Shown one piece after another: positions 1-9,200 of a stretch of DNA of 64,000 nucleotides. Both the position numbers and the translations under genes were made by a program. The stretch's first letter is position 1; every line of letters starts with the position of its first letter. The stretch comes from Pseudomonadota bacterium (lineage in GTDB: Bacteria; Bdellovibrionota; UBA1018; CAIMNF01). The stretch lies in assembly GCA_027486675.1 (NCBI GenBank), contig JAIXOQ010000003.1, forward strand, positions 1 to 64,000. The letters run 5' to 3'. Below the pieces are notes generated by a model. The model was not told where the DNA came from. It was given only the letters and a program-made list of their open reading frames with translations, and ran no database searches.

Positions 1-86
1 AATGGAATCACGTATCTGAAGTTCAATTAAATCCAACAAAAGAAATGAGGGAATCACTCCAAAATGCCGAACAATCCGCTGCCTAA
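1..86 (+). CDS. possible 3' end of a gene entering from the left
   Basis: Frame 3 is open from the window edge to a TAA at 84-86, giving about 27 residues rich in Asn, Gln and Glu. It could be the C-terminus of a gene of the same integrated element as the recombinase at 262. So short an open stretch can arise by chance and there is no family signal. Positions 87-261 show nothing recognisable except the recombinase ribosome-binding site. Confidence 0.25.
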   Translation, partial: WNHVSEVQLNPTKEMRESLQNAEQSAA

Positions 87-261
87 AAAGCACGCGACAT
101 CTTTCTTGAAAAATTCCGGCTATATAGCTTATTGAACCAGCTCCATGGCGAGACGTGTATCCATACGTCTTGCTCGAATCGAAATCATTCCCTGATCCAA
201 AAAAACGAGACATCAAACCAGGGCCTTTCTGCGCATTGCGCGGAAGAAAAAGGAGCGATCG

Positions 262-1959
262 ATGGAGAAGAGCATATTCAGAAAGCAGCGTAGGGCTCCA
301 AACAAGCGAGCACTGCAAAAGACGAATGAGATTCGCGCAGCATTCTATATTCGGGTTTCGACGGAAGAACAGGCGGAGAATCCAGAGGGATCGATCAAGA
401 ATCAGGAAGAGCGTTTAAACTTTGCCCTTCAGATGCGTAGTTCTGACGTAATGCAGTGGCATAAGATCGGCGTCTACTGCGACGCGGGTAAATCCGGAAA
501 GGACATGAACCGTTCAGAACTCAGACGGCTATTAGACGACATTGAGTCAGGGAAGATCAATATGCTGATGGTGAGCGAGCTGTCCCGACTCACCCGCTCC
601 ACTAAGGACTTTTCGGAACTCTGGGAATTCTTGCAGGCGAATCGGTGTGGGTTCTTAAGCCTACGGGAAAACTTCGACACCTCTACTGCTGCGGGCGAAA
701 TGATGCTCTATCAGATAGCGAACTTCGCTCAGTTTGAACGGAAGCAAACCTCTGAACGCGTGTCGGCGAACTTTGAAGCCCGCGCAAAACGGGGGCTTTG
801 GAATGGGGGCGTTATCCCGTTGGGATATGAGGTGGACCCAGAGAATCGCGGATGCCTGCGAATCTGCGAGGAAGAAGCAGCGTCCGTTCGCGCAGCCTTT
901 CAGGCGGTGATCATCCAAGGAACCTTAACGAGTGCCGCGCGCTGGCTCAATGAAAGCGGCATCCCTTACTGTGGAAGCAATCCTAGACGCACCTTCCGTC
1001 CGAGGCTAAAACACTTCGTATCCGATAACCTAAGACGCCTCATCATCAACCAGCACTACATTGGAATCCGGCGTTTTAAGACGAAGGAAGGTTTCAAAGA
1101 AGTGAAGGGCGCATGGACGCCCATCATCGATCAAAAGACCTTTGAACACGCGAATCAGATCCTTGCCGCAGTTCCGATCACCCACCCGAATATGCGGAAT
1201 CGGTATCCGTATCTCCTTTCGGCGCTTGTGTACTGCGAGCAATGCGGGCAGGTCCTGATCGGAAGGACGGCTACGAGTGAAAGCGGAAAGAAGATTGGCT
1301 ATTACGAACACTCCACCCAGATCAGGCGCGAAAGTACTCTAGCCGTGAAATCTCCGAAGTGTGCAACTCACCGCATACCCGCGAAGAAGATCGAAGAACG
1401 CACCTGGAATGAAATCTTGGATCTCCTAAAAGGTGAAAACAGACACCGAATGCTTCAGGCGATCCAAGCTCTGAACGACCAGTCACCAGAAAGAAAGCAC
1501 ACCTCGCGCATTGAAAAGGAGCGAGATGCCACAACATTAAAGCTTCGTGTCCTTGCGGAACGGTTGGCCGAACTACCGGAAGGAATTCCGACGGATGCGA
1601 TCTACGCGGAAATGAAACGACTTCAGGAGGCAAAGGTGCGCTTGGAGGAGGAGGTCCTGGCCAGTCTACGGGAGACTCCAACCCATGAACCCGTCACGCC
1701 GGACCGGTATGCGAAGCTCCTCAATAGCCTCGCGCACACGATGAGTCAGGAACCACTCATCATCGGCTTTGAGTCCAAACGCAGGATCATTCAGGCGCTC
1801 ATTCACAAGGCGGTCGTGTTTAAGTCAGGACTGAAGCTGATGTTCTATGCGGGATCTGAACAAATGAGAAAGGGGGAGGCGTTGGCCTCCCCCTTGGAAT
1901 CATTCAAGAATTTGTTTTCTACACAAAGTTCGATTTTGGGGTTGAATGGTGGGCGATGA
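262..1959 (+). CDS. large serine recombinase (site-specific integrase)
   Basis: This 565-residue protein is a member of the large serine recombinase family, which integrates and excises phages and mobile elements by cutting both DNA strands through a serine-DNA bond. The N-terminal resolvase domain starts near residue 25 with YIRVSTEEQ, which places the nucleophile at Ser33. A recombinase domain follows (about 190-300). Then comes a zinc-ribbon (CEQCGQVLIG, with a further Cys after a YEH motif near residue 360), and a charged coiled-coil region (about 420-480). The start at 262 is supported by AGGAG six bases upstream. The last four codons overlap the 3' end of the tRNA-Val gene on the other strand, so the element boundary lies there. 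The product may be functional, because all domains are present and the frame is intact. Confidence 0.93.
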   Translation: MEKSIFRKQRRAPNKRALQKTNEIRAAFYIRVSTEEQAENPEGSIKNQEERLNFALQMRSSDVMQWHKIGVYCDAGKSGKDMNRSELRRLLDDIESGKINMLMVSELSRLTRSTKDFSELWEFLQANRCGFLSLRENFDTSTAAGEMMLYQIANFAQFERKQTSERVSANFEARAKRGLWNGGVIPLGYEVDPENRGCLRICEEEAASVRAAFQAVIIQGTLTSAARWLNESGIPYCGSNPRRTFRPRLKHFVSDNLRRLIINQHYIGIRRFKTKEGFKEVKGAWTPIIDQKTFEHANQILAAVPITHPNMRNRYPYLLSALVYCEQCGQVLIGRTATSESGKKIGYYEHSTQIRRESTLAVKSPKCATHRIPAKKIEERTWNEILDLLKGENRHRMLQAIQALNDQSPERKHTSRIEKERDATTLKLRVLAERLAELPEGIPTDAIYAEMKRLQEAKVRLEEEVLASLRETPTHEPVTPDRYAKLLNSLAHTMSQEPLIIGFESKRRIIQALIHKAVVFKSGLKLMFYAGSEQMRKGEALASPLESFKNLFSTQSSILGLNGGR

Positions 1960-2022
1960 GAGGCTCGAACTCCCGACCTTGACGGTGTAAACATCCTGCT
2001 CTACCAACTGAGCTAATCGCCC
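1947..2022 (-). tRNA. tRNA-Val (anticodon TAC)
   Basis: A 76-nt cloverleaf reads on the minus strand, with acceptor GGGCGAT pairing ATCGCCC, a D-arm GCTCAGTTGGTAGAGC, anticodon loop TTTACAC and a TTCGAGC T-loop. CCA is encoded (1947-1949). The first pair of the anticodon stem looks mismatched (G27 with A43). It lies downstream of rpoC on the same strand, behind a terminator. Its 3' end is shared with the stop region of the serine recombinase, as expected for an integration site. Confidence 0.93.
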
Positions 2023-2091: not shown

Positions 2092-5000
2092 CTACAAAGT
2101 GGCCTGTGTGCCTTCTGTAATTGTTGAAGCCATCGAATCAGAAATCCCGGCATCCTCAGTCACTTTCGCAACGAGGTTACGGTATTTAGCCAACCCGGTT
2201 CCAGCTGGAATCAAGCGACCCATGATGACGTTCTCTTTGAGACCTTTTAGGTAATCCGTCTTCCCAGAGATTGCAGCCTCGGTGAGCACCTTTGTCGTTT
2301 CCTGGAAGGATGCAGCCGAAATGAAGCTCTCCGTGGTCAAGCTGGCTTTTGTGATCCCTAAGAGAAGAGGCTCAACCGTACACGCCGTGCCACCACCTGC
2401 GCGGATACGATCGTTCTCGGCTTCAAGAGTCCAACGGTCTACTTGTTCACCACTCAAGAAGCGAGTATCGCCGACGTCTCTGACCTTCACCTTACGCAAC
2501 ATCTGACGAACGATCGTTTCAATGTGCTTGTCGTTAATGCGGACGCCTTGAAGACGATAGACCTCTTGAACTTCATCCACGAGGTATTTCGCAAGAGCCT
2601 TGTCACCTAGTACGCGAAGAATATCGTGTGGATTGACTGGGCCATCCATCAACGGCTCACCCGCTTTGAGATAATCCCCTTCGTTCACAGCCAAGTGACG
2701 GCCTTTACCGATGAGATATTCGCGAGCTTCGCCACCTTCTGGGGTAACCACAATCTTACGTTTCCCTTTGGTGTCTTTCCCGAATGAGACGACGCCATCG
2801 ATTTCCGTAACAACTGCTGAATCCTTCGGTTTACGAGCTTCAAAGAGTTCCGCGACGCGAGGCAAGCCCCCCGTGATGTCCTTCGTTTTCGAAGTTTCAC
2901 GGTGAATCTTTGCGATCACATCCCCAGGCTTCAGCTCACTGCCGTCGCTGACCACAAGGTTAGCGCCGACTGGGAGCATGTAACGTGCAACACGTTGTGA
3001 TCCAGGAATGACGATTGGATTGCCTTTAGCATCCATGATCAACAACTTCGGACGCTTGTCAGTCGATTTGGACTCAATGATGACTTTATGGGAGAGACCG
3101 GTAACAGCATCAAACTGTTCAGTCATGGTCACACCCTCTTCAAGATCATCGAATGCGACAGTTCCGCCGACTTCGCTAATCATTGGAGTGGAATATGGAT
3201 CCCATTCGGCAATCAAGGTTCCGCGTTCTACTGAATCATTTTCTTTCAGTAGAAGTTTTGCGCCGTAAACAAGCTGGTAACGCTCTCTTTCACGGTTGGT
3301 TTGATCGTAGACGGAAAGTTCACCGTTCCGGGTCATGACGATCAAGAAACCCTCGCGGTTTTTGACTGTCGTTACGTTATGGAACTTAATCGTGCCTTTG
3401 GTTTTCGCCTGAAGGTTAGATTGTTCAGCACTTCTGGATGCTGCACCACCGATGTGGAAGGTACGCATCGTGAGCTGAGTTCCTGGTTCTCCGATCGATT
3501 GGGCAGCGATCACACCGACTGCTTCACCGATGCTTGCCTCACGTCCGCGACCTAAGTCACGGCCGTAACACTTGGAGCAAATACCCCAACGTGTGCGGCA
3601 AGTCAGTACCGAGCGAATCTTCAAGCGGTCAACACCAGCATCTTCGATCTTACGAACGAGAGCTTCATCCAGCTCTGTCGTCGCAGGAACAAGAACCACT
3701 GAGTTCACAGGATCTAGGATGTCTTCGAGTGTGACGCGACCTAAGGCACGGATTGCAAGTGATTCAATCACTTCCCCGCCTTCGATCAACGCGCCGACTT
3801 CGATGCCATCTTTAGTACCGCAATCAACTTCGGTCACGATCACGTCCTGAGCAACGTCCACAAGACGGCGCGTCAGGTAACCCGAGTTCGCTGTCTTCAG
3901 AGCGGTATCGGCCAAGCCTTTACGTGCTCCGTGAGTGGATACGAAATACTGAAGAACAGATAGCCCTTCGCGGAAGTTTGCGATAATCGGTGTTTCGATA
4001 ATCTCGCCGGATGGTTTCGCCATCAAGCCGCGCATCCCAGCAAGCTGCCGGATTTGTGCGTTCGAGCCCCGAGCTCCGGAGTCCGCCATAATAAAGATGG
4101 AGTTAAAAGCAGGACCTACGACGGTCTTCTCTTTTCCTGCCCATCCTTCTGGTGCGGTATAAGTCTGCGTCGACAAGTTCTTCATCATCGCATTGGTGAC
4201 TTTTTCCCCAGTTTGCGCCCAAATATCGATCACCTTGTTGTAGCGCTCGCCATCAGTGATCAGACCCTCTACGTATTGGTTCTCAATTTCTTGAACCTGC
4301 GCGTAGGCGGCATCAACGAGTTGTTTTTTCTCGTTCGGTATCATCATGTCGTGGATCGAGATCGAAATCCCTGCTTTCATCGCCTGACGGAAACCCGTCT
4401 GCATGATGTTGTCAGCAAGAAGGACCGTTTTCTTATTTCCGGTTTTACGGAAACAGATATCGATCAATTCGGCGAGTTCCTTCTTACCCAAAACTTTATT
4501 GTAAGCTTTGAATTCGATTTCCTCAGGAACGATATCGCTGAGCAACGCACGACCAACTGTGGTCTCCGCTAATACGCCTGCGATACGGCATTTAATTTTT
4601 GCTTGAAGATCTACAACGCCACTTTCGAATGCGAATCGCACTTCATTGACGTTAGAGAAAATCTTGCCTTCGCCACGAGCAAACGGACGTTCGCGCGTCA
4701 TGTAATACATCCCAAGAACAATATCTTGAGATGGAACGATGATCGGCTTTCCGTGTGCTGGGGAAAGAATGTTGTTCGTGGACATCATGAGTACGCGTGC
4801 TTCGATCTGAGCTTCGATCGAGAGAGGTACGTGCACGGCCATTTGGTCACCGTCGAAGTCAGCATTGAATGCCGTACAAACGAGCGGGTGAAGCTGAATT
4901 GCTTTCCCTTCGATGAGTACTGGTTCAAATGCTTGAATCCCAAGGCGGTGAAGCGTTGGAGCGCGGTTCAAGAGCACTGGGTGTTCTTTAACCACTTCTT

Positions 5001-6237
5001 CCAAGATATCCCAAACTTCTTGGCGTTGAAGCTCGACCATCTTCTTAGCAGATTTGATCGTGGTGACGAATCCGTACTCGATCAACTTGCTGTAGATGAA
5101 CGGCTTAAAGAGCTCAAGTGCCATCACCTTTGGAAGACCGCATTGATGGAGTCTCAATTCAGGTCCAACGACGATTACGGAACGACCCGAATAGTCGACG
5201 CGTTTTCCTAGTAAGTTCTGACGGAAACGGCCCTGCTTCCCTTTGAGCATGTCAGAGAGGGAGCGCAATGGACGCTTGTTAGGACCAGTGAATACCTTTC
5301 CGCGACGACCGTTGTCGAAGAGTGCATCTACCGCTTCTTGAAGCATGCGCTTCTCGTTGCGGATGATGATCTCTGGAGCATTGAGCTCCACGAGACGGCG
5401 AAGACGGTTGTTCCTGTTGATCACGCGACGGTAGAGGTCGTTGAGATCGGAAGTCGCAAACCGACCACCATCAAGTGGCACGAGCGGACGTAGTTCCGGT
5501 GGAATCACAGGAATCACATCCAGCATCATCCACTCAGGGCGATTGGTTCCGCTGGTTTTCAGGGACTCAACAACGGTCAGACGTTTTGTAAGCTTCGTGC
5601 GCTGAGCTTCAGATACGGTTTCCTTAAGATCTCGCCGCAATTGGCGTCCGAGAAGCTCGAGGTCGATCTTCTTCAGCAACTCACGAATCGCTTCACCGCC
5701 CAAGCCGGCTTGGAAAATGGCGGTTTCTTTGATGAGTTGGTTGTACTTTTCTTCCGAAAGCACCGTGCCCACTTCGAGGCCAGTATTACCGGCATCGATC
5801 AGGACATAGGCTTCGCAATAAAGAACCTTTTCAAGATCTTTAAGGCTCAGGTCTAAGAGAGCGCCGATCCGAGAAGGCAAGGAGCGCAAGAACCAGATGT
5901 GTGCAACTGGAGTAGCGAGTTCGATGTGCCCAAGACGTTCACGGCGAACTTTGGATTGAATGACTTCAACACCGCACTTTTCGCACACAACACCGCGGTG
6001 TTTCATGCGCTTGTACTTACCGCAGTTACATTCGTAATCCTTCACTGGTCCGAAGATCTTCGCGCAGAAGAGACCGTCACGTTCCGGCTTAAATGTCCGG
6101 TAGTTGATGGTTTCTGGCTTCTTCACTTCGCCAAAGCTCCATTCACGGATTTTTTCCGGTGATGCGAGCGAGATGCGAATACCGCGGAAGGACAGCGGAT
6201 CTTTCGGCTTATCGAAAAAGTTCAATAGATCTTTCAT
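2092..6237 (-). CDS. rpoC: RNA polymerase subunit beta'
   Basis: This is the beta' subunit, which carries the catalytic magnesium site of RNA polymerase. At 1381 residues it is close to the usual proteobacterial length. Visible hallmarks are the N-terminal zinc finger ([20 protein letters not shown], about residues 70-88), the active-site motif NADFDGDQ near residue 456, and the second Cys cluster [16 protein letters not shown] near 885-900. The start ATG at 6237 is preceded by AAGGGGACACG. It follows rpoB after only 9 bases, so the two are cotranscribed. Confidence 0.99.
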
Positions 6238-6246
6238 CGTGTCCCC

Positions 6247-9200
6247 TTAGAGCAGATCTGCTTTTAGTTCTTTAGTTTCATCGGACTCAATGAGTTCGAC
6301 GTTGAGCGCTAAGCTCTGAAGTTCTTTGACTAATACGTTGAAGGACTCAGGCAAGCCTGGTTCTAGGATCTGTTCGCCTTTTACGATCGCTTCATACATC
6401 CGGTTCCTACCTGTGACGTCATCCGACTTCACAGTGAGGAATTCCTGAAGTGCATAAGCTGCACCGTAGGCTTCAAGTGCCCAGACTTCCATCTCTCCAA
6501 GACGCTGGCCCCCAAACTGCGCTTTACCGCCGAGTGGTTGTTGGGTCACGAGGCTGTATGGCCCGATGCTTCGCGCATGGATCTTTTCTTCGACCAAGTG
6601 GTGGAGTTTCAGCATGTACATAATGCCGATCGTCACTTCCTCAGCAAAAGGTTCGCCCGTCACACCGTCAAACAAGGTGGTCTTTCCAAGATTTGGAAGA
6701 TCCGCAAGTTTCAACATGTTGTGAATGTCAGCTTCATCAGCACCATCAAAGACAGGAGATGCAAAGTGAACACCATCTTTCAGGTGCGATGCCATTTCCA
6801 AAACGTCTTTGTCTGAGGCTTTAGCCAAATAGTCTTGAACACTCTTGTCCGTGTAAGTCGCCTTAAACAGCTTACGAAGAGGCTCGACTTGTTGACGCTC
6901 CACCAAGCCAGTGATCTGGTCACCCAAACCACGAGCGGCCCAGCCCATCGTGATTTCAAGCAACTGACCAATGTTCATCCTGGATGGAACACCGAGTGGG
7001 TTCAGAACCATATCCACAGGGCGACCGTCTGCCGCATACGGCATGTCTTCCTGAGGCATGATTCGGCTGATCACCCCTTTGTTTCCGTGACGGCCGGCCA
7101 TTTTATCGCCGACTTGCAACTTACGTTTGATCGCAATTTGCACCTTCACCATTTTGATCACGCCTGGAGCAAGTTCGTCCCCACGCTTTAATTTTTCAGT
7201 CTTTTCACGGAACACAAAACGAATCGCTTCGATGCGCTGTTTTGCTGTCTTCATGACTTGGGTGACTTCGGCTTCGAGGTCGCTCTTCACTGGGATGAAG
7301 CCGATCAGCTCGAAAGGAATTCCTTCGATTGCGGCAGCATCCAGTTTTTGACCCTTGGCTAGAAGCTCTTCGGATCCATCTTCAGAAAGCAACTTTCCCG
7401 TAGTTGCGGAACCTTCAAGAGCCTTAATCGCACGGTCCAGAGCTGTCCTTTTGACAGCATCAACCTCAATTTTCTCATCGCGGCGGATTTTTGCTACCGC
7501 GTCTTCAAGGATCTGTTTGGATCGATCATCAAGCTCAGTGCCTTCACGTGCAAACACTTGCGCATTGATGATGGTTCCGTAAACACCAGATGAAGCGCGA
7601 AGAGATGTATCCCGCACGTCGCCGGCTTTTTCGCCGAAGATCGCTCTTAAGAGCTTCTCTTCAGGAGAAAGTTGCGTTTCACCCTTAGGTGTCACCTTAC
7701 CGACAAGAATGTCGCCAGGTTTCACTTCGGCACCGATGCGAATGATCCCGCTCTCGTCGAGGTCTTTCAGTGCCTCTTCGCCAACGTTTGGAATATCGCG
7801 GGTGATCTCTTCTTTCCCGAGCTTCGTATCGCGGGCAACACATTCATATTCTTCGATGTGGATCGAAGTAAAAGTGTCATCCTTGATCAAACGCTCAGAG
7901 ATCAGGATCGAATCCTCGAAGTTGTATCCGCCCCATGGCATCAGAGCAACGAGGATGTTTTGGCCAAGAGCCAATTCGCCAGCATCTGTGCTTGGACCGT
8001 CTGCCAGAACGTCGCCGGCAGAAACTTTCGCTCCAACGTGAACAACCACGCGCTGATTGATGCAGGTGTTTTGGTTCGAACGTTGGTACTTCGTCAGGTT
8101 GTAAATATCTACGCCTGATTCATCTTCGCTAAAGTCATCGGTCCTGCGAACGACAATCTTGCCGCCGTCGACAAGGCTCACTTCACCATCGTGCTTGGCG
8201 ACGATGACATGACCGCTGTCGCGGGCAACAACGCGTTCGATCCCGGTCCCGATGAACGGAGCCTTCGACCGAAGCAGAGGCACAGCTTGACGCTGCATGT
8301 TCGAGCCCATGAGTGCGCGGTTAGCGTCGTCATGTTCAAGAAATGGAATCAGGGAAGCGGCGATAGACACCAACTGATTGGCAGAAACGTCCATCAGCTC
8401 GATATCGTCCGGGTTCACCATCGCAAATTCGCCTTTTTTACGGGCAGGAGCGAACTCACCGTCGAAGGACTTTTTACCAAGAGCCTCGGCGTTTGCTTGA
8501 GCGATGATCTTGTTTTCTTCTTCGGTTGCGGTGAAGAAGTTGATTTCATTTGAAACCTTACGGTCCCGGATCACGCGATATGGGGTTTCGATAAATCCAA
8601 ACTCGTTCACGCGAGCAAAGGTTGAAAGACTGGCGATCAAGCCGATGTTTGGTCCTTCAGGAGTCTCGATCGGACAAATCCGACCATAGTGAGTCGAGTG
8701 AACGTCGCGGACTTCAAAGCCTGCGCGATCACGAGTCAGACCACCGGGTCCAAGGGCAGAAAGACGACGTTTGTGAGTCACTTCTGACAATGGATTGGTC
8801 TGGTCCATGAACTGCGACAATTGGCTAGAACCGAAGAACTCTTTCACCACCGCAGACACTGGTTTCTGGTTGATGAGGTCGTGCGGCATGAGCGTTTCAA
8901 TTTCTTGAATGCCCATTCGCTCTTTAACCGCGCGCTCCATACGCACAAGGCCGATACGGAACTGGTTCTCTACGAGTTCGCCCACTGCACGAACACGACG
9001 GTTCCCGAGGTGATCGATATCATCGATCGTCCCGCGGCCGTTGTTCAGTTCACAGAGATAGAACAAGGTGCTCAGCACGTCTTCTTTCGTAAGAACAGTG
9101 GAATCCTTGCTTTTAGTATTATTTGGGAATTTGTAGTTCAACTTCAAACGGCCAACGATCGAAAGATCGTAACGGTCTGTATTGAAGAACAGATTTTCCC

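Follow-up and report, generated by a model that had tools for sequence, protein, structure and literature searches.

An integrase gene at the left edge of contig JAIXOQ010000003.1 (assembly GCA_027486675.1, phylum Bdellovibrionota) is probably, at odds of about 85%, the integrated and shortened form of a large serine recombinase (LSR) that targets transfer RNA (tRNA) genes and whose own coding sequence contains the attachment site of the element (attP). The window analysed here comprises positions 1 to 64,000 of the contig, forward strand. In the circular element, a single open reading frame (ORF) would encode a catalytic body, a variable linker, the residues G-S-x-S-L-T-N-G and then a conserved helix-turn-helix (HTH) tail. 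The attP site would span the junction of body and tail, with GTTC N4 A N3 T on the body side and A N3 T N4 GAAC on the tail side, and would recombine with the 3' end of a tRNA or transfer-messenger RNA (tmRNA) gene, the host half-site being the universal GTTC of the T arm. Strand exchange is predicted at the first two base pairs of the acceptor stem, with the element providing the CCA end, the discriminator and the first two acceptor bases. Because the element supplies these bases, the tRNA would remain whole and any tRNA with the same dinucleotide would be usable. Integration would move the HTH tail, which has no start codon, to the far end of the element (attL), and the body left at the tRNA (attR) would read into the antisense tRNA up to the first stop. 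At the level of sequence, this reading is carried by a fixed codon phase, six-nucleotide repeats, a dyad with a 5-bp offset, orphan tails, an uncut ORF and unoccupied sites, and the integration mechanism appears well supported.

The window gene (262..1959, plus strand; ATG start, TGA at 1957-1959) encodes 565 amino acids (aa). Its Resolvase (337-798), Recombinase (868-1167) and zinc ribbon (1213-1416) matches all lie above the curated Pfam cut-offs, as expected of an LSR; it also matches a PHROG integrase, and its best sequence matches in the PDB are the TP901-1, YokA and A118 integrases. Serine 33 of the YxRVST motif, which we take to be the catalytic serine, is invariant in 15 aligned relatives. 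The preliminary description, made from the sequence of the window alone, had the recombinase ending within the 3' end of an opposite-strand tRNA-Val gene that stays intact. Both points hold: the ORF overlaps tRNA-Val(TAC), the putative attachment target (1947..2022, minus strand), by 13 nucleotides (nt; 1947-1959) that contain the encoded CCA and the stop codon, and the tRNA is complete (Rfam tRNA, 59.5 bits at 1950-2022). The source genome holds three LSRs, each reading into an opposite-strand tRNA, on contigs C1 (the window; Val), C12 (Pro) and C11 (Leu-CAA).

LSR homologues were found at E values up to 1e-60 in 88 of 368 genomes in a search across the Bdellovibrionota. A first scan of named genomes returned no relatives; a second scan, using an alignment, found them, and among the best 80 of 158 most are labelled Bdellovibrionales, Oligoflexia or Bacteriovoracaceae and a few carry other labels. 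The host group of the integrase consists of predatory-type bacteria. The survey covered 81 loci (designated L with a number), chiefly the best-scoring matches, and converging tRNAs were counted in the 74 whose sequence continues for at least 60 nt past the stop codon. A convergent tRNA or tmRNA lies at the integrase end in 58 of these 74, and the tmRNAs of L097 and L100 were confirmed by Rfam. Among 80 viral LSR loci used as a control, 41 had enough sequence and two of these had a convergent tRNA. The earlier statement that LSRs use tRNA ends less often than tyrosine integrases do is thus borne out for viral LSRs but fails in this phylum, where tRNA ends are the rule. In a second control of 20 LSRs from more distant branches of this phylum, 9 likewise have a tRNA or tmRNA at their end, and the habit therefore extends past this clade. 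Viral contigs contained only distant LSRs, and where a tRNA converges on the LSR, as in two of them, a motif rule gave no match. Phage homologues are at most about 30% identical among the matches listed. Across 57 rows of a tree, the targets comprise 17 tRNA isoacceptors that serve 10 amino acids, and the amino-acid class has changed at least 21 times. Past the junction of L081 lies a sequence like tRNA-Leu(TAA), seemingly interrupted at the anticodon region; ARAGORN did not recognise it and the possible intron had no Rfam match, so an intron was not confirmed.

The junction of integrase and tRNA could be aligned at 69 loci (58 from ARAGORN and 11 placed by hand on a sequence motif). The tRNA end stands in one and the same codon phase of the integrase ORF in all 69, and the overlap is therefore beyond chance. 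A GTTCG motif lies at a constant distance from the junction, each of its bases kept in 65-68 of the 69 loci, third codon positions included; in the window it occupies 1928..1932 (plus strand) and would form the outer recognition block of the element-side half-site. The linker ahead of the junction is highly variable yet kept open, the last 50 codons being free of stops in the integrase frame at 68 of 69 loci and in the other two frames at 2 and 3. Perfect hairpins of at least 8 bp occur in this linker at 34 of 69 loci, and at none of the 69 in a stretch within the gene body taken as control. These hairpins are flanked by A-rich and T-rich sequence on both sides, as expected if they were terminators for both strands, which suggests that the hairpin replaces the terminator that the tRNA loses. 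The window has such a terminator-like hairpin within the coding sequence (1870..1895; 11-bp stem, 4-nt loop, found by stem search and folding), with a predicted energy of -28.3 kcal/mol and a z score of -4.83.

The junction had also been described as the right boundary of an element extending to the left, with two checks proposed. The first concerned relatives with an empty tRNA-Val site. In ten relatives the tRNA-Val(TAC) gene (76/76 nt identical) stands beside rpoC, the conserved chromosomal flank (2092..6237, minus strand, in the window), and is followed by unrelated DNA, with no LSR next to rpoC and tRNA-Val in the 0.5-1.3 kb of flank visible. Beyond these ten, the short stretch retrieved from one relative contained no tRNA, and rpoC was not matched in another. 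The recombinase is hence not conserved in all relatives, and the proposed boundary gains support. The second check, for another copy of the 3' end of the tRNA, gave no match in the source assembly, which the short repeat of this family (only 6 nt) explains. The DNA past the tRNA varies among the ten relatives, and synteny gave no far end for the window element. Contig C1 and the window share their first base, and the left part of the element is thus unreadable there. The window reveals one end only and the assembly has no second one, as it would if the recombinase were resident and immobile and its ORF had drifted into the neighbouring tRNA. That explanation is hardly credible, however, given ten relatives without an LSR at the same tRNA, the frequent changes of target across the family and the 31 elements of relatives in which both ends were identified.

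Far ends became recognisable through the HTH tail. At the far ends of elements in relatives, the integrase frame runs on into a conserved HTH stretch without a start codon. A profile built from five tails and run against the 368 genomes matched 30 loci. In 23 of these the match extends to the start of the tail; GAAC occupies nt 26-29 of the far end in every one, and a TGG precedes the tail in phase, 22 times exactly and once with a shift of 3 nt. Among the surveyed loci, the profile showed an orphan tail upstream of the integrase on the same strand in 30, of which 27 have GAAC at nt 26-29. A rule requiring the attR core, 19 bases, GAAC and an open frame, applied to 22 loci without a tail, gave four further candidates: L060 (61 bits), L098 (65 bits), L134 (10.8 bits) and L130 (-1.3 bits), of which the last resembles the L134 tail by eye. 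An in-frame, startless HTH tail thus stands at the far end of 34 of the 57 loci with at least 2.5 kb of upstream sequence. These include L060, the sister of the window LSR (50% identical), whose rule-found tail lies 13,375 bp away behind the same TGGTTC core as its attR. The uncut form was seen as well: L073/L238 is an unbroken ORF of 636 aa comprising body, junction and tail, with a second tail 7,423 bp upstream, like a tandem pair. In these relatives attP lies within the integrase gene, as the orphan in-frame tails and the L073 ORF indicate, and integration therefore removes the C-terminal domain; by comparison with them, the attP of the window element presumably also lay within the gene, a point absent from the preliminary description, and the element presumably has an HTH tail of its own. 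Two orphan tails stand in tandem upstream of one integrase in L085 and L095, as if a second element had entered the same tRNA, and the attP-like junctions of L128 and L132 are followed by no recognisable in-frame HTH.

The tails resemble the HTH of resolvases. HTH_7 was matched by all five tails at E values up to 0.1 (best 1.7e-6), the first member falling under the curated cut-off, and a PDB profile search with the tail gave gamma-delta resolvase at E 0.0012, ranked behind some designed and other HTH proteins. In the predicted structure of the fused protein the tail has low confidence (predicted local distance difference test about 44-63); modelled alone it folds as an HTH, and a Foldseek search with this model gave no PDB match at E <= 0.001. 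The tail had no tblastn match in phage and plasmid collections. An alignment combining bodies and tails put the tails in the wrong place and was set aside. Integrated elements carry the HTH stretch apart from the integrase, and the family to which it belongs (resolvase HTH, HTH_7) is a common one, so it might be a small gene in its own right that sits at the left end of the element and is in frame across the circle by chance. This is very unlikely, since conservation starts at the TGG of the attachment site without a conserved start codon, the phase is fixed on both the integrase and the tail sides, the sequences upstream of the TGG are unrelated and L073 carries body and HTH in a single ORF.

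Comparison of sister elements at different tRNAs, and of the two ends of single elements, points to where the element stops. L076 (Leu-TAG) and L083 (Leu-CAG) match at 60 of 60 upstream bases and on into the antisense tRNA as far as nt 6, beyond which they diverge. The sister pairs L111/L112 (Met/Val), L070/L072 (Met/Val) and L099/L105 (Leu/Phe) diverge at nt 7, 7 and 9, and at the left ends of L111, L112 and L114 agreement starts at TGG. Of the 27 attL/attR pairs found by the profile, all 27 agree at nt 5-6 and 26 agree throughout nt 1-6, with L106 alone showing a difference, at nt 4; shuffled pairs agree in a mean of 8.3 and a maximum of 18 of 27 (20,000 shuffles). Rare cores also match between ends (TGGATG at Gln, TGGTAC and TGGCGT). 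With the four rule-found pairs included, identity at nt 1-6 is 31, 31, 31, 30, 31 and 31 of 31 and falls to 15 at nt 7, although the ends were positioned using nt 1-3 and nt 5-6 were imposed in those four. The repeat of these 31 two-ended elements, which range from 3.5 to 40 kb (median 6.5 kb), is thus six nt long and corresponds to CCA, the discriminator and the first two acceptor bases. In the window, the element boundary would be TGGTGG at 1947..1952, and the pairs together with the sister integrases place the predicted crossover dinucleotide at 1951-1952. We infer both the recombination activity and the exact crossover base from these sequences.

In a classical tRNA island the element would instead copy about 17-20 nt of the tRNA 3' end, with crossover at the border of T stem and T loop as in tyrosine-integrase islands, and the ORF overlap would be a by-product. 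Copies of 17-22 nt of a tRNA end do lie upstream in L065, L107 and L111, and the L077 junction has 19 nt of tRNA and 3 further nt in common with an intact tRNA-Leu(tag) of the same genome, its best dyad being centred at nt 16.5 (18 of 38 pairs). This alternative is nevertheless improbable: near-identical integrases at different tRNAs diverge from nt 7, attL/attR identity drops at the same base, an 18-mer repeat was present in only 3 of the loci searched, and L065, L077 and L111 each have a tail with a six-nt repeat at another place. The copies themselves lie at or close to element ends, at L111 1937-2370 (in a repeated unit of about 215 bp), at L065 6352, in L107 279 bp before tRNA-Glu and at the L077 junction. 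Treating the repeats of L065, L107 and L111 as attL, and L077 and tRNA-Leu(tag) as attP and attB (the host attachment site) with crossover at nt 16-17, was dropped because sister integrases diverge at nt 7 and the true far ends were found.

The conserved bases around the short core are arranged symmetrically. In 61 distinct tail starts A17, T21 and GAAC at 26-29 are conserved. On the integrase side T-6, A-10 and GTTC at -18 to -15 mirror these positions around a dyad centre at 5.5. GAAC stands at nt 26-29 in far ends and at nt 21-24 in tRNAs, which places the host block five bases closer; in the window this block, the complement of the T-arm GTTC, lies at 1967..1970 (plus strand) and would be 5 bp nearer the crossover than in attP. 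An outer motif 5 bp nearer the centre in attB than in attP is an arrangement described for LSRs in PMC3783163, and the sites here show the same offset. The GAA of the tail-side GAAC also encodes a conserved Glu, with A as its third base in 61 of 61.

Several observations weigh against this interpretation. The attachment blocks overlap coding sequence, so their conservation may be partly at the protein level. Among the 57 loci, 23 show no tail (in some the contig may stop short of it, and the rule was not applied to five), the tails of L108, L128 and L135 have weak profile scores (E 0.04-0.09) and that of L130 scores below zero. No tRNA or tmRNA was called by ARAGORN at the end of 16 of the 74 loci or at the attR of 7 of the 31 resolved pairs. 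Three of the nine distant LSRs that end at a tRNA or tmRNA (L207, L212 and L217) enter the antisense gene in another codon phase, and the targeting of tRNA ends may have originated, or shifted, on more than one occasion. The 17-22-nt repeats near L065, L107, L111 and L077 are not explained by this reading. The same HTH tail is borne by a tyrosine integrase, L330 (G007:C54, minus strand, about 6323-7975; Phage_integrase E 3e-29); the tail is therefore not exclusive to LSRs and is a module common to unrelated integrase families. The L330 tail follows a TGGCGG junction and has GAAC at nt 26-29. Finally, the window's own attL, far-end signature and HTH tail were not found in the source genome. The far end of the element is probably missing from the assembly, since the search for the far-end signature there gave no tail.

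Tail loss is proposed to turn the enzyme away from integration. A wider scheme, combining a built-in direction switch with a near-universal target, is possible but distinctly tentative. The full-length enzyme, made only from the circle, would integrate, and integration itself would strip the HTH domain. The remaining complete catalytic body would be incapable of re-integration and may favour excision, with no separate directionality factor. With a target read through the T arm in addition to such a switch, an element might insert at nearly every tRNA gene of nearly every bacterium, the two-base core being the only limit.

What surrounds the integrase indicates how such elements may travel. A Replication-relaxation homologue is near the integrase in 41 of the 81 loci and a TraG/D-like coupling protein in 9, and on this basis the elements are likely to be mobilizable. 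The corresponding cargo region of the window lies past the contig end. Terminal overlaps, a sign of circular contigs, were not reported for any of the 81 loci. Upstream of the window integrase is the remainder of an ORF cut by the contig end (3..89, plus strand; last 28 codons and stop), which belongs to the backbone of the element. Bases 1-118 of the window are identical to bases 1-118 of contig C12 (L057), which likewise runs into a tRNA-associated LSR. Because these identical bases are followed by different LSRs, the two elements of the source genome seem to have a backbone in common but different integrases, as though the integrases had been exchanged. A stretch 81% similar to window 1-118 adjoins an LSR in L214. 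The cargo of L065 (7473-11053) encodes a ThsB-type TIR protein, a TIR_2 protein and a SLOG (LD_cluster3) protein, likely an anti-phage defence.

If the interpretation is correct, tRNA and tmRNA genes join the known targets of serine integrases, and a short rule (T-arm GTTC plus a two-base core) explains moves among at least 17 tRNA isoacceptors. Self-splitting integrases would extend from archaeal tyrosine enzymes to bacterial serine enzymes, and a simple route to both ends of such elements would be available, as would a possible built-in answer to how integration becomes one-way. Serine integrases are tools of genome engineering, and insertion beside a conserved, self-restoring tRNA site would be practically useful.

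An integrated element with an LSR is ordinary; the target, the self-splitting and the lost HTH domain are unusual. No description of tRNA-targeting serine integrases with attP inside, or splitting, their own gene was found among the open-licence PMC papers searched, and large island databases may contain such elements unremarked. Like Islander-type tRNA islands, these elements insert at the 3' ends of tRNA and tmRNA genes and keep the gene whole, but their 6-nt repeat is too short for the Islander signature; a displaced tRNA fragment, an Islander trait, was not found for the window and amounts to six nt in relatives. With the TP901-1, A118 and YokA integrases the family shares the Resolvase, Recombinase and zinc ribbon domains and an outer motif 5 bp further out in attP, and it differs in targeting many tRNA and tmRNA 3' ends, in having attP in the gene and in its extra HTH tail. 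The streptococcal rumA integrative and conjugative elements, with a single serine integrase, offer a precedent for an altered C-terminus, since integration swaps the 3' parts of the target and integrase genes; there the target is a protein gene, frames change and section 23 of PMC4701971 describes no separable conserved domain. A parallel in gene structure is with the archaeal self-disrupting or suicidal integrases (SSV1, pTN3 and pT26-2), in which the attachment site likewise lies in an integrase gene that is split on integration, as set out in PMC8371274, a review in which self-disrupting recombinases are called exclusively archaeal. The archaeal enzymes are tyrosine recombinases that lose their catalytic part, whereas the window LSR has serine-family domains only, its Resolvase domain stays in the truncated ORF, and what this bacterial serine enzyme would lose is a C-terminal HTH.
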